Shown: one piece after another, positions 18,478-28,368 of the stretch
Layout of the letters: the number at the start of each line of letters is the position of its first letter
Position numbering within the stretch: position 1 is the stretch's first letter
Source: Dehalococcoidia bacterium
Lineage (GTDB): Bacteria > Chloroflexota > Dehalococcoidia > Dehalococcoidales > BS750m-G39
DNA length: 43,040 nt
Direction of reading: 5' to 3'
NCBI GenBank assembly: GCA_011176635.1
Contig: DUEC01000001.1
Location: forward strand, 1 to 43,040
The notes under the pieces: model-generated
Database searches by the model: none
Told to the model about the DNA's origin: nothing
Seen by the model: only the letters and a program-made list of their open reading frames with translations
Program-made: the position numbers and the translations under genes

Positions 18478-18565
18478 CAGCCTAAGGAACTAGACAATGA
18501 TGAGCATGTAAAAAGGGCCTATCTATATGGTAAGAACGAATCCAAATGAAAGTGGCAGAACCTGA

Positions 18566-18673
18566 CTTATGATTGGTGGTGGCCAGATTGACGATGAAGT
18601 CAGGAAATATGCATATGCCGATGCCTACGGTAAAGACGCCATGGTGGCAGTGTCACTAGAAAAGGATGGGTAG
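18566..18673 (+). pseudogene. C-terminal fragment of a corrinoid (B12-binding) methyltransferase-type protein
   Basis: Hand translation: LMIGGGQIDDEVRKYAYADAYGKDAMVAVSLEKDG*; matches the typical GGG...GADAYGxDA C-terminus of MtaC/MtbC-like corrinoid proteins; TGA immediately upstream in frame. Confidence 0.6.
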
Positions 18674-20012
18674 AAGCCAATTGACAGTAGAGAAGAAATG
18701 GGCTGAGTTATCTCCCGAGGAAAAGCGGGAAGAGCGATTCAAGAGATGGCTTTCGCCTGATGTTAAGTTCTCCAGCCCAGAAGCCGAGAAAGCCTACAAG
18801 GCAAGATTAACGAGGATAATCGAAGCTATTCGGCTGAGGGAACCTGACCGGGTACCGGTTAATCTGCCGTCGGGATATTTCCCGACTTATTATGCTGGGA
18901 TAACGCTCCGGACGGCCATGTATGATTATGATGAACTCTGCCAGGCGTGGCTGAAGTTTATGCAGGATTTTGATATGGATACGTTTGGAGGTCCCGGTCT
19001 TGTCTTTCCAGGTAGGGTAAGTGAGCTTCTTGATACGAGAATATCGAAATGGCCGGGCCACGGTCTTCCTGCTGATGTAAGATTTCATCAGTTTGTTGAA
19101 GGCGAATATATGAAGGCGGACGAATACGATGTCTTCCTGAATGACCCGTCGGATTTTTGCCTTAGATTCTATCTGCCCCGCACATTAGGAGCTCTGGAGC
19201 CTTTCCATAGGCTTTCTCCCTTCACACATGCATTGGGGATGCCGACCAATTTTTTAGCATCGTGCACAATGCCGGATGTTCAGGCGGCGTTTCAATCTAT
19301 TGTAGATGCTGGTAGAGAACTGGGGAAATGGTGGGAGGCTGTTGAGGACTGTAGCCAGAAGGTGATGTCAGAGGGATTCCCGTCTTTCTGGGGTGGCATG
19401 GCCATGGCGCCCTTTGATACCTTCGCCGATACATTAAGAGGAACTCGGGGGATAGTCATGGATATGTACCGGCAGCCGGATAAGTTACTAGAAGCCATGG
19501 AAAAAGTAACACCCCTGAATATTGAGGGGGCAGTGTCGGCTGCCAACGCCTCCGGAGGTCCAGTAATATTTATGCCGTTGCATAAAGGTGATGATTCTTT
19601 TATGTCCAACAAGCAGTACGAGACCTTCTACTGGCCCACCTTGGAAAAGGTTATTTTAGGCTTGGTTGATGAGGGCCTCGTGCCGCTGTTATTCGCTGAG
19701 GGAAGCTATAATAGGCGTTTGGAGATTATTAAAGATTTGCCCAGGGGCGTGGTGGTGTGGCATTTTGACCAGACGGATATGGCCAGAGCCAAAGAAGTCC
19801 TTGGTGACTCCGCCTGTATCGCCGGGAATGTACCTGCCTCGCTGATATGCACGGGTACGCCCCAGGCTGTTAAAGAATACTGCCGTCAGCTTATCGAGGT
19901 TTGTGGTAAGGGTGGCGGTTATATCTTAACCGGCGGGGCAGCTGTTGATAAGTGCAATCCCGATAATCTGCGTGCCATGATGACAGCCGCCAAAGAATAT
20001 GGCACCTACTAG
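18666..20012 (+). CDS. Uroporphyrinogen decarboxylase-family protein (methyltransferase-like, COG0407 type)
   Basis: 448 aa; EAIRLREPDRVPV, GDSACIAGNVPASLICTGTPQAVKEYCRQLIEVCGKGGGYILTGGAAVDKCNPDNLRAM. Confidence 0.85.
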   Translation: MGRSQLTVEKKWAELSPEEKREERFKRWLSPDVKFSSPEAEKAYKARLTRIIEAIRLREPDRVPVNLPSGYFPTYYAGITLRTAMYDYDELCQAWLKFMQDFDMDTFGGPGLVFPGRVSELLDTRISKWPGHGLPADVRFHQFVEGEYMKADEYDVFLNDPSDFCLRFYLPRTLGALEPFHRLSPFTHALGMPTNFLASCTMPDVQAAFQSIVDAGRELGKWWEAVEDCSQKVMSEGFPSFWGGMAMAPFDTFADTLRGTRGIVMDMYRQPDKLLEAMEKVTPLNIEGAVSAANASGGPVIFMPLHKGDDSFMSNKQYETFYWPTLEKVILGLVDEGLVPLLFAEGSYNRRLEIIKDLPRGVVVWHFDQTDMARAKEVLGDSACIAGNVPASLICTGTPQAVKEYCRQLIEVCGKGGGYILTGGAAVDKCNPDNLRAMMTAAKEYGTY

Positions 20013-20158
20013 ATAGAGGGAGGCCGTCTTCTGGCATAGTAAGCTCAAGGGTTTCACTTACCTCGTGTGGGCCAACCTCCATCCTTGTGGCGGTTCTTTC
20101 TTAGGTGAGCCCTCTCTATCTTCATATCTTTGTCACGCATCGCTTCCTGTTTGGAGTA

Positions 20159-20186
20159 TTGACAAGCATAATATGGAGAGTATAAT
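20159..20186 (+). promoter_or_regulatory. Putative sigma-70 promoter (TTGACA-N16-TATAAT) for ABC transporter operon
   Basis: ttgaca 20159-20164, tataat 20181-20186; both hexamers perfect. Confidence 0.7.
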
Positions 20187-20249
20187 TGCAGTTACTAGAA
20201 CGGAATAATTTCTAAACTAAAAAGTCTCGCTGAAGAAAGGAGGCAAACA

Positions 20250-20273
20250 ATGATTCAGGTAGGGGTGAAATAG
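20250..20273 (+). other. Possible leader mini-ORF MIQVGVK*
   Basis: ATG ATT CAG GTA GGG GTG AAA TAG preceded by AAAGGAGG SD; between promoter and SBP gene. Confidence 0.35.
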
Positions 20274-20309
20274 TTTCTGGAGAATTCACAAAGGAGGCAT
20301 GTTTTAACA

Positions 20310-21908
20310 ATGAATAAGTTACTTGTTTGTTTGTTAGTGTTAGCCCTGATAGCAGTGCCCTTATTTGCTGCCTGTGATGAAGATGGTGTAACAACCACAC
20401 CGCCGACCACACCGCCGACCACACCAGCCGAAGAAGAACCGGTATACGGTGGTGTCATGAGAGTCGTTGGGGGTACCTTTCCATCGGTTGTAGGATATCC
20501 ACCGGAATTCAGCCCCACTGACAGCATATACGCCCTGCCCTGCATAGAAAGACTATGCGAATGGGATGAAGATGGGGTTCAAATCCCAGTGTTAGCTACA
20601 GCCTGGGTAGTAGACCAGGATAACCTGACCATCACTTGGTACCTGAGGGAAGGCGTTACCTTTCATGATGGGACACCCTGGAATGCCGAGGCATGCCGGT
20701 GGAACTTCCAGCTACAATTGGACGGGGGCAGGTTACCTTATGGTCAATACGTAGAGTCCCTTGAAGTTGTTGATGAGTACATTTTCAGGATGCATCTTAC
20801 GGACTACACCTGGTACATGATCGAACAATATGGGTGGGTCATGATGATTTCGCCGACAGCATTTGAAAATGCCGGCGACACTCTTGAAGAGCGTATAGAT
20901 TGGGCTCGCTCAAACTCAGTAGGGACAGGTCCCTTCCAACTTGTTGATTTTCAGCGAGATGTCATCCTCGTATACGAGGGGAATGATGACTACTGGCGGG
21001 AAGGCATGCCATATCTCGATGGTATCGAAGCCAGTTTCATTCCAGACCCCGTGACAGCCGCAGCCAAGATGGAGGCGGGAGAGGCAGATATGTGGATATA
21101 CGCGCAATCCGTACAAAGCATTCTTGACTTAGAGGAAATGGGGCTTACGGTAAACCGGGGGACTGGCCTGTCTGGTATGTTCTGGTCGCTCTTGCCTAAT
21201 TCCAGCGACCCCGACTCACCACTTGCCATTCAGGAGGTACGCGAGGCAATAGAGTATGCCATTGACCGCCCGGCCATAGCCGAGATGCTGGGATTCGGCG
21301 AGTATGAACCTCTTCATCAGATAGCTTCCCAAGATTGGCCGGGTTATGTTGAGGGTTATGACCCCCGACCGTATGATCCGGCGATGGCCGAACAGTTGCT
21401 GGCTGATGCGGGTTACGCCGGTGGCTTCGAGATCTCGATAATGGCCACGGATGCAGCACGTGATGCTGTCTCCGCTTTACAGGCTTATCTGGGTGATGTA
21501 GGCATTGATGTTGAACCGGATATCGCCGACTTTGGCAGATACTTTACTGCTCTCTTTTTCACAGGCTGGGATGACCTAGTATTAGCTGCGTCTGGAATCA
21601 ACCCCGATGCCACTGACTTATTCGTCCATTTTGGCCCCACCCCGATGACCTTCATGACTGGTAACATCTATAAGTCACCCGAATACCTAGCTCTATGCGA
21701 TGAGGCGCTGGATCCCCAGTATGCAGATGCCTTTGAGGCAATGGATACGATAAGGGATGCAGTAATGCAGGCCGGTGAGGATGCTATGATTATCCCACTT
21801 TGGAGAGACCTCAGCGTGGCGGTGATGCAGTCCTATGTTCACAGCGATTATTTCATGATACACGGCGTCATCTGGACCCCGTATGACACTTGGATGGAAC
21901 CACATTAA
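20310..21908 (+). CDS. ABC transporter substrate-binding lipoprotein, family 5 (peptide/nickel/oligosaccharide type)
   Basis: Lipoprotein signal LIAVPLFAAC; TPPTTPPTTP linker; WYLREGVTFHDGTPWNAEACRWNFQ; VREAIEYAIDRPAIAEM. Confidence 0.92.
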   Translation: MNKLLVCLLVLALIAVPLFAACDEDGVTTTPPTTPPTTPAEEEPVYGGVMRVVGGTFPSVVGYPPEFSPTDSIYALPCIERLCEWDEDGVQIPVLATAWVVDQDNLTITWYLREGVTFHDGTPWNAEACRWNFQLQLDGGRLPYGQYVESLEVVDEYIFRMHLTDYTWYMIEQYGWVMMISPTAFENAGDTLEERIDWARSNSVGTGPFQLVDFQRDVILVYEGNDDYWREGMPYLDGIEASFIPDPVTAAAKMEAGEADMWIYAQSVQSILDLEEMGLTVNRGTGLSGMFWSLLPNSSDPDSPLAIQEVREAIEYAIDRPAIAEMLGFGEYEPLHQIASQDWPGYVEGYDPRPYDPAMAEQLLADAGYAGGFEISIMATDAARDAVSALQAYLGDVGIDVEPDIADFGRYFTALFFTGWDDLVLAASGINPDATDLFVHFGPTPMTFMTGNIYKSPEYLALCDEALDPQYADAFEAMDTIRDAVMQAGEDAMIIPLWRDLSVAVMQSYVHSDYFMIHGVIWTPYDTWMEPH

Positions 21909-26060: not shown

Positions 26061-28016
26061 ATGAGTACATGGCATGATTATTTTAAGGAACAAGGTCACG
26101 CACCAGATTGGCCGTATCCTATCCGCTTCGACCAGGAGCAAGAAATCGACGCCGATGTCCTGGTGATTGGTGGTGGTATCGCCGGTTGCTGGGCAGCCAT
26201 CAGTGCCGCCAGGCAGGGACTGAACGTTGTCCTTGCCGAAAAAGGAGATACCGTCAGGAGTGGCGCCGGAGGCCCTGGCTGCGACCACTGGTGTGATGTT
26301 CCGGCAAACCCCCTATCCAACGTGGACCCGGATGAATGGGCACGGCACATGGCCGAGCGGCCATACTGCAACGGTATTGGCCTCCAGATACAGTGCCGTG
26401 AGAACTATGACACCCTGCTCGAACTGGAACAGATGGGAGGCAAAGTCAGGGACAGCGGTGATGAATACGTGGGCGCTCAGGGCCGGGATGAGAAGACCAA
26501 GTTCATGATTTCCCCGCGCTATACGAAAGTCCACAGTTATGTCCCGGTGGATGAAAAAACAGAGGGAAAAATCTTTGCCAGTAATCCGGAAGGAAAACTG
26601 AACAACGTGGTAATACGGGTCTGGGGGTCCACTTTTAAACCCGTATTAAAAAAGGAGTGTCAGCGCTTAGGGGTTAAAATCTTTGACCGCGTGATGATGA
26701 CCAGCCTGCTGACCGAGAACGGAGCCCAGGGCGCCCGGGTGGTCGGGGCCACCGGCCTCAACAGCCGCACCGGTGAATTCATGATTTTCAAATCCAAATC
26801 GACCATCCTGGCCACCTCCGGAGCCGGGTCGATATGGCTGATAAGCACCGAATTAGGCGGCTATTGCAACATGATGTCCCGAACCATTGCCGGCGACGGC
26901 ACCGCCATGGCCTGGAAAGCCGGGGCTGAACTGACCACGATGGAAAGCACCGGAATCGTGCGCATTGCTGTCGGCTATAAGCATAAGTGGTATACCGGGG
27001 CAGGTGACGCCAGTTATGAGAATGTTCCTATCGTAGATGCCAACGGTAAAAGAGTGCCTTTCCCGATACAGGGCTGGGTCGACGCAGGGTATATGGTCCC
27101 CAGCCCCGAAGTTGAGCAAGCCGTCCGGGAAGGGATACTCAAGGGCGAATACGCGCTGCCGTTCTACGGTGATTTTCCGGCCATGCCTGAGGTAGAGAGA
27201 AACGCTACCTGGAAGCTGATGCTGGGAGAAGAATCTACCACCAAAGTTATTACCAAAACCTTCAACGATGCCGGCTATGACCCCAGCCGGGACTTACTCC
27301 AGAGTTACCGGTATATTGAGGGTAACAGTTTAGCGCAATGGCGGGAGGCCAGTTACGGTGGTGGCATATTAGTCGACTGGGACTTGAAGACCTCTCTTGA
27401 GGGGCTGTATGCCGCCGGGACGCAGATGTTTTCCCCCGAGGACCATAGCTATGCGGCGGCTACCGGCAGGTATGCCGGCCGAAAAGCGGCCGCCTATGCC
27501 CGGCAGGTCGGTGAGCCCCAGATATCACGTGAACAGGCCGTCCTTGAGAAAGCCCGGGTTTATGCCCCGGTTAAGCGCAGCAGCGGCATGGAGTGGAAAG
27601 AGCTTCATGCCGGTATTGCCAGAGCCATGCAATATTACTGCAGTGAGTTTAAAACCGAGAGTCTTCTGAATATGGGTCTGGGCACCCTGCGAAAAATCGA
27701 AGAGGAATCAGTGCCTTTACTATTTGCTCTGGACCCACATAAGCTGATGCGCAGTCTGGAAGACCTCAGTCTTTTAACTTACGCTCAAATCGTTACCCAC
27801 GCTTCTCTGGCGCGCAAGGCCAGTAGCATCCCCCTTAATTTCCAGAGGATAGACTACCCGGCTCTGGACCCACCGGAGTGGAGGAAGTATCTTACGCTTA
27901 AGCTGGAAAACGGCAAGGTCAAAGCCGGCGAATTGCCGCTGGCCTTTTGGGGTGACATGAAAAATCAGTATGAAGCCCGTAATAAAGACTATACTGGCGT
28001 ATATAAGGGAAAATGA
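26061..28016 (+). CDS. FAD-dependent fumarate reductase/AprA-like flavoprotein (paralog 2)
   Basis: DVLVIGGGIAGCWAAISAARQGLNVVLAEKG; GTAMAWKAGAELT; C-term FQRIDYPALDPPEWRKYLTLKLENGKVKAGELPLAFW parallels paralog 1. Confidence 0.88.
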   Translation: MSTWHDYFKEQGHAPDWPYPIRFDQEQEIDADVLVIGGGIAGCWAAISAARQGLNVVLAEKGDTVRSGAGGPGCDHWCDVPANPLSNVDPDEWARHMAERPYCNGIGLQIQCRENYDTLLELEQMGGKVRDSGDEYVGAQGRDEKTKFMISPRYTKVHSYVPVDEKTEGKIFASNPEGKLNNVVIRVWGSTFKPVLKKECQRLGVKIFDRVMMTSLLTENGAQGARVVGATGLNSRTGEFMIFKSKSTILATSGAGSIWLISTELGGYCNMMSRTIAGDGTAMAWKAGAELTTMESTGIVRIAVGYKHKWYTGAGDASYENVPIVDANGKRVPFPIQGWVDAGYMVPSPEVEQAVREGILKGEYALPFYGDFPAMPEVERNATWKLMLGEESTTKVITKTFNDAGYDPSRDLLQSYRYIEGNSLAQWREASYGGGILVDWDLKTSLEGLYAAGTQMFSPEDHSYAAATGRYAGRKAAAYARQVGEPQISREQAVLEKARVYAPVKRSSGMEWKELHAGIARAMQYYCSEFKTESLLNMGLGTLRKIEEESVPLLFALDPHKLMRSLEDLSLLTYAQIVTHASLARKASSIPLNFQRIDYPALDPPEWRKYLTLKLENGKVKAGELPLAFWGDMKNQYEARNKDYTGVYKGK

Positions 28017-28038
28017 TAGTTTCAAAATCGAAACTATG
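28017..28038. repeat. 8-bp inverted repeat between flavoprotein 2 and ferredoxin 2
   Basis: atagtttc-aaaatc-gaaactat directly after the flavoprotein stop. Confidence 0.6.
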
Positions 28039-28071
28039 CCTTTTAAGTAAGTCGGATTTTTGGAGGAAAAG

Positions 28072-28368
28072 ATGTCTAGTCAAAAATTAAGCGCCATACC
28101 TAATGTGGTTACACCGAATGCCCCGGTGATTTTTAATCCTGATATCTGCAACGGGTGCAACATCTGTGTAGAGGTCTGCCAGATAGACGTATTCATACCC
28201 AATCCAGAGAAAGGCAAACCACCTATCATATTGCATCCCGATGAATGCTGGTATGGCGGCTGCTGTGTTAATGATTGTCCCCGACCCGGGGCTATCACCT
28301 TCAACTGGCCGCTTCAACAGCGAGGGTACTGGAAGAACAAAGCCACCGGGGAAATCCATCAAATCTAG
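28072..28368 (+). CDS. Small ferredoxin, AprB-like partner of flavoprotein 2
   Basis: ICNGCNICVEVCQIDVFIPNPEKGKPPIILHPDECWYGGCCVNDCPRPGAI; ATG 28072 with TGGAGGA SD. Confidence 0.85.
   Translation: MSSQKLSAIPNVVTPNAPVIFNPDICNGCNICVEVCQIDVFIPNPEKGKPPIILHPDECWYGGCCVNDCPRPGAITFNWPLQQRGYWKNKATGEIHQI

Follow-up and report, generated by a model that had tools for sequence, protein, structure and literature searches.

Among proteins of known structure, the nearest relative of the putative methyltransferase considered here is CdmB, which binds the substrate in a chloromethane:corrinoid methyltransferase system akin to the O-demethylases and is without zinc (PMC13222342). It has been proposed that in Methermicoccus two such proteins, MtoB1 and MtoB2, share a single MtoC (PMC8630106). 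We have analyzed a stretch of 43,040 nucleotides from a Dehalococcoidia bacterium (contig DUEC01000001.1, positions 1 to 43,040; hereafter the window) in which a relative of CdmB is encoded. Like CdmB, this putative methyltransferase (hereafter the window UROD) appears to have a UroD fold and to lack the MtaA-type zinc site; it differs from CdmB and from the O-demethylases MtoB, MtvB, OdmB and VdmB in having no adjacent corrinoid gene, only a remnant of one, and in having as neighbours the genes of a flavoprotein, a ferredoxin and a transporter of the oligopeptide type (Table 1).

Table 1. Coordinates of the features around the corrinoid remnant (positions in the window)
Feature	Position	Strand	Basis or detail
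FAD-dependent fumarate-reductase/APS-reductase-like flavoprotein, 663 aa	16100..18091	+	ORF; FAD_binding_2, Succ_DH_flav_C
Dicluster 4Fe-4S ferredoxin, 112 aa	18139..18477	+	ORF; Fer4_7
Liv-type ABC transporter ATPase, probable C-terminal remnant (~22 codons and stop), QPKELDNDEHVKRAYLYGKNESK*	18478..18549	+	
Methyltransferase corrinoid protein (by homology), C-terminal remnant	18554..18673	+	Open part 18566-18670, stop 18671-18673
UroD-superfamily methyltransferase (putative, CdmB/MtoB-like MTI), intact, 448 aa	18666..20012	+	ORF; URO-D 1.1e-23
SBP gene promoter and leader	20121..20309	+	TTGACA-16-TATAAT at 20159-20186, 12/12 consensus match
Oligopeptide/nickel-type ABC transporter substrate-binding protein (SBP)	20310..21908	+	

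The preliminary description of this DNA had suggested that the window UROD might have lost or changed its function, and for this we find no support: its frame is open over all 448 codons, although translation may begin at TTG 18681 instead of ATG 18666, and none of 55 near-invariant positions (those conserved in at least 97% of 64 UROD relatives) is altered. Of the proteins with a solved structure, only CdmB of Acetobacterium dehalogenans (PDB 9RUI; 2.5e-45, and 2.5e-61 with a profile) matches it strongly. The predicted model has a UroD fold (pLDDT 84) whose best fold matches are UroD and MtaA structures (E 1e-11 to 1e-7), and the CdmB structure is not among the fold matches listed for it. The zinc motif of MtaA is HxC, where the window UROD has H306-K-G308. 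The protein falls outside both the MtaA/CmuA class (TIGR01463, 42 bits against a cut-off of 235) and the HemE class (TIGR01464, 24.9 bits against a cut-off of 303). On sequence and modelled structure, we regard it as a putative substrate:corrinoid methyltransferase (MTI) of the CdmB/MtoB-like kind.

Immediately upstream, the frame 18566-18673 encodes the peptide LMIGGGQIDDEVRKYAYADAYGKDAMVAVSLEKDG*; re-reading of the sequence agreed in every detail with what had been described, namely the frame itself, the TGA (18563-18565) directly 5' of it, the closing TAG and the overlap past ATG 18666. The resemblance of this peptide to the extreme C-terminus of corrinoid proteins, also proposed earlier, proved significant. 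The same genome encodes two small corrinoid proteins that are intact, on contigs C20 and C51; in tblastn the peptide matched their C-terminal ends with 79% (4e-14) and 73% (1e-12) identity over 33 aa, and an HMM built from 18 related proteins scored 48.8 bits (E 5e-14) at model positions 171-205 of 210. When this HMM was scanned over the entire window and 14 related loci, no frame of the window had any similarity outside 18563-18667, and nothing comparable occurred elsewhere in the window. The signature that ends the B12-binding fold, GGGQxxxEVRKYxxADAYGKDAM, is present in the remnant, while the DxHxxG cobalamin ligand, whose absence had been pointed out, and the N-terminal helical cap are not found near it in any frame. 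The homology has its 5' limit at ~18554-18566 and corresponds to the last ~35 codons of a corrinoid protein gene. At the DNA level, a profile aligns 18566-18741, from the corrinoid 3' end into the start of the UROD gene (E 1e-37), and the nearest kin among 156 genomes of the order, at 77% (contig C41 of genome G112), spans the same corrinoid-UROD junction.

The mode of divergence of this stretch is that of a coding sequence. Over 28 codons, the differences from the two closest intact tails number 1/1/14 and 1/3/10 at codon positions 1/2/3, and its similarity to the intact tails is about equal to that found among them (26-28 of 32 residues against the nearest). A chance resemblance, or a piece of conserved non-coding DNA, has practically negligible probability: it could appeal to the lack of any match of the 35-aa peptide in Pfam, for which the peptide is too short, or of the short spacer peptides in NCBIfam, and it is refuted by the HMM E value, by the third-position bias and by the placement of the stretch exactly before a UROD gene, since the relatives of the remnant likewise lie directly upstream of UROD-family methyltransferase genes and often overlap them. 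We read 18566-18670 as coding for the C-terminal end of a methyltransferase corrinoid protein. For most of its history this tail was part of a functional protein, and since the differences are mostly at third positions, its truncation is recent compared with the divergence of these genera.

It is nonetheless a remnant, and not a gene or a member of the family, because at least two frame breaks and the missing 5' part set it apart. The loss of one base at ~18654-18665 shifts its last codons, so that the frame now ends EKDG* where it formerly ended KKWxxxx*; the neighbouring frame still reads KGWVEAN* at the position where intact genes have KKWIGxx*. The other indel lies near 18560. Compared with the TIGR02370 family (MtbC/MtgC/CdmC/MtoC type), to which the two intact homologues of the genome align at 4e-43 and 5e-48 while remaining under the full-length cut-off, the remnant amounts to the last ~35 residues, a frameshifted tail whose helical cap and DxHxxG region are gone and which therefore cannot bind corrinoid as such.

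From the ferredoxin stop to the corrinoid tail there are ~70 bases, which in one frame read QPKELDNDEHVKRAYLYGKNESK*; this peptide is probably a second gene tail, that of a Liv-type ABC ATPase. The feature compared was the Liv C-terminal motif ExLxNDExVKxAYLG, which ends the reading frame. With blastn, 39 bp of the stretch aligned at 79% identity with the livF 3' end in locus L071 (KELINDEKVKKAYLG), and when the peptide was searched against the 156 genomes, three of its five non-self matches were the C-termini of LivG (G067 and G018) or LivF (G117). A shuffle test on the loci was biased, some of these having been picked with that very peptide, and the genome-wide search is the unbiased measure. 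The Walker motifs are absent because only the tail is left, and the LivF HMM alone gives 0.9 bits, below significance, on a tail of only 22 codons; the Liv identity is graded as probable for that reason. The alternative that the corrinoid gene began in this stretch (PKEL... compared with MPKDF...) was rejected: HMM, nhmmer and Smith-Waterman comparison against shuffles gave nothing, and the resemblance is to a Liv ATPase C-terminus rather than to a corrinoid N-terminus.

The order livG-livF-corrinoid-UROD recurs in five genomes of Dehalococcoidales (contig C51 of the window's own genome, G002:C2, G004:C26, G007:C21 and G033:C59), and G003:C110 has it with a gap of 3 kb. The neighbour most often seen immediately before an intact corrinoid gene encodes LivF, and a ferredoxin gene never occurs there. 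Given this recurrent order, the spacer between ferredoxin and UROD looks like two successive gene tails. It has the same order of gene identities as that operon, from which it differs in that two genes are cut to their tails and in that the window UROD belongs to a different clade from the UROD of C51. Elsewhere, a 263-aa protein without NCBIfam match, presumably a DUF169 protein, is encoded directly upstream of the corrinoid gene on contig C20 (L001, 2236-3027), and a copy 76% identical to it precedes the corrinoid gene in G004:C33.

The window UROD joins a clade (89/98) whose members are linked mostly to a flavoprotein-ferredoxin pair, to the same SBP-permease transporter, or to both. Of the ten other members, nine are without a neighbouring corrinoid gene in the locus DNA compared (one of them at a contig edge), and the tenth sits inside a corrinoid-UROD array; a missing corrinoid partner would thus not be unusual in this clade. 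Trees of UROD residues 1-125 and 126-448 broadly agree, and both place the window UROD in the flavoprotein-linked clade, which speaks against a mosaic gene with a 5' part from a corrinoid-linked paralogue, an origin at which sliding identities had hinted. With the corrinoid HMM we found no further corrinoid remnant before the other URODs of the clade. The window is not alone in having gene fragments ahead of such a UROD: in G120:C17 (L183, 2560-3200) a sister UROD is preceded by flavoprotein gene fragments, the N-terminus of an IclR regulator and the C-terminus of a ferredoxin.

The closest orthologous locus, G002:C62, begins inside the 3' end of its UROD gene, its upstream side lying off the contig. 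From there it is 82% identical to the window in the DNA of the SBP leader, 79% in the SBP, 92 and 91% in the two permeases and 92 and 89% in the two ATPases that follow in synteny (to 25985 in the window; 79-92% overall); the flavoprotein and ferredoxin are 87 and 88% identical. As UROD is followed by the SBP gene there too, this adjacency is older than the split. The SBP leader contains a short ORF with a Shine-Dalgarno sequence ahead of it (ATGATTCAGGTAGGGGTGAAATAG; in some relatives ATGACGTAG), is kept upstream of SBPs that share only 24-27% identity, and is without a match in Rfam at 20121-20309; it is possibly an attenuation-type leader. The pairing of flavoprotein and ferredoxin genes is seen in dozens of loci. 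The flavoprotein before the remnants has NCBIfam matches below cut-off only, and a second such pair ends the ABC transporter operon of the window, at 26061-28368.

We consider it probable that the two tails are what survives of the genes preceding UROD in a liv-corrinoid-UROD operon whose corrinoid gene was recently truncated, the methyltransferase now working in trans. Two deletions, or a recombination, would have cut both of these genes down to their tails and brought the ferredoxin next to UROD. The preliminary description had envisaged the deletion of a corrinoid partner at this place; the rest of the gene is indeed missing, but a deletion confined to that single gene is improbable in view of the second, probable Liv tail, and a loss in place draws no support from the relatives, in none of whose loci examined does an intact corrinoid gene lie between ferredoxin and UROD. 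The tail may instead have arrived truncated. A block of Liv tail, corrinoid tail and UROD would then have entered a ferredoxin/SBP junction when already 5'-truncated, and the corrinoid gene would never have been intact here. This we hold to be the less probable history, though one with a substantial chance. It fits that absence, the mostly corrinoid-free clade of the window UROD and the arrangement in G050 (L060), where the ferredoxin and SBP genes adjoin with nothing between them and UROD is further downstream; a block exchange is also hinted at by the likeness of the UROD-SBP leader to leaders behind UROD in corrinoid-UROD-SBP operons with such dissimilar SBPs. However, the arrangement in G002:C62 indicates that UROD already stood before the SBP gene in the common ancestor, and the trees built from its first 125 residues and from the rest of the protein agree, giving no sign of a breakpoint within UROD.

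Other accounts have lower probability. It is unlikely that the remnant has been kept because its 34-codon frame, from ATG 18569 to the TAG, couples translation to UROD as a full corrinoid gene would. Intact corrinoid genes do overlap the UROD start on contig C20 and in corrinoid-UROD arrays, and, the frame break notwithstanding, the micro-ORF still shares 8 bases with the UROD gene as read from ATG 18666, but no clear Shine-Dalgarno sequence is seen by eye before ATG 18569, and the low amino-acid divergence is equally well explained by a recent truncation. An assembly artefact, with an intact corrinoid gene hidden by a collapsed or misjoined repeat, is more improbable still: multi-copy UROD genes do break assemblies, as in G002:C62, which ends inside one, but neither tail is more than 79% identical to any other copy that the genome contains, so they are not pieces of other contigs, and the genes flanking them on both sides make up one recurrent locus type. 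In our preferred reading, then, the pair of remnants is ordinary operon decay.

Under this preferred reading the UROD protein would still work and would methylate a corrinoid protein from contig C20 or C51, and that carrier would be serviced by the corrinoid activator and pterin methyltransferase of the genome; an AcsV-like activator and a methyl-THF:corrinoid methyltransferase are encoded close together on contig C12. Use of a corrinoid protein encoded elsewhere, as had been suggested, is plausible given the two intact genes. In arrays of relatives one corrinoid gene precedes two to six UROD genes, and as a single such gene stands before up to six of them, the sharing of carriers is to be expected in this group. 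Three array loci of Dehalococcoidales relatives (L184, G121:C114; L186, G108:C113; L255, G117:C74) consist of one corrinoid gene followed by 4-6 tandem CdmB-like UROD-family genes. Since the genome (1.10 Mb in 76 contigs) is 83% complete, the assembly could lack another corrinoid gene that is intact. A wider proposal, which we regard as rather doubtful, is that the entire flavoprotein/ferredoxin-linked CdmB-like clade gave up its dedicated corrinoid partner, with a shared pool of carriers or a corrinoid-independent chemistry in its place, and that the window captures a recent loss of the partner gene.

In the corrinoid remnant, operon decay has left a clean fossil that shows the former partner of an uncharacterised methyltransferase. 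It warns, too, against annotating UroD-family proteins of this kind as HemE or as self-contained, which would be wrong. If the clade does work without a carrier of its own, those Dehalococcoidales genomes that combine many of these methyltransferases with few corrinoid proteins would offer a test bed for how methyltransferases share carriers.
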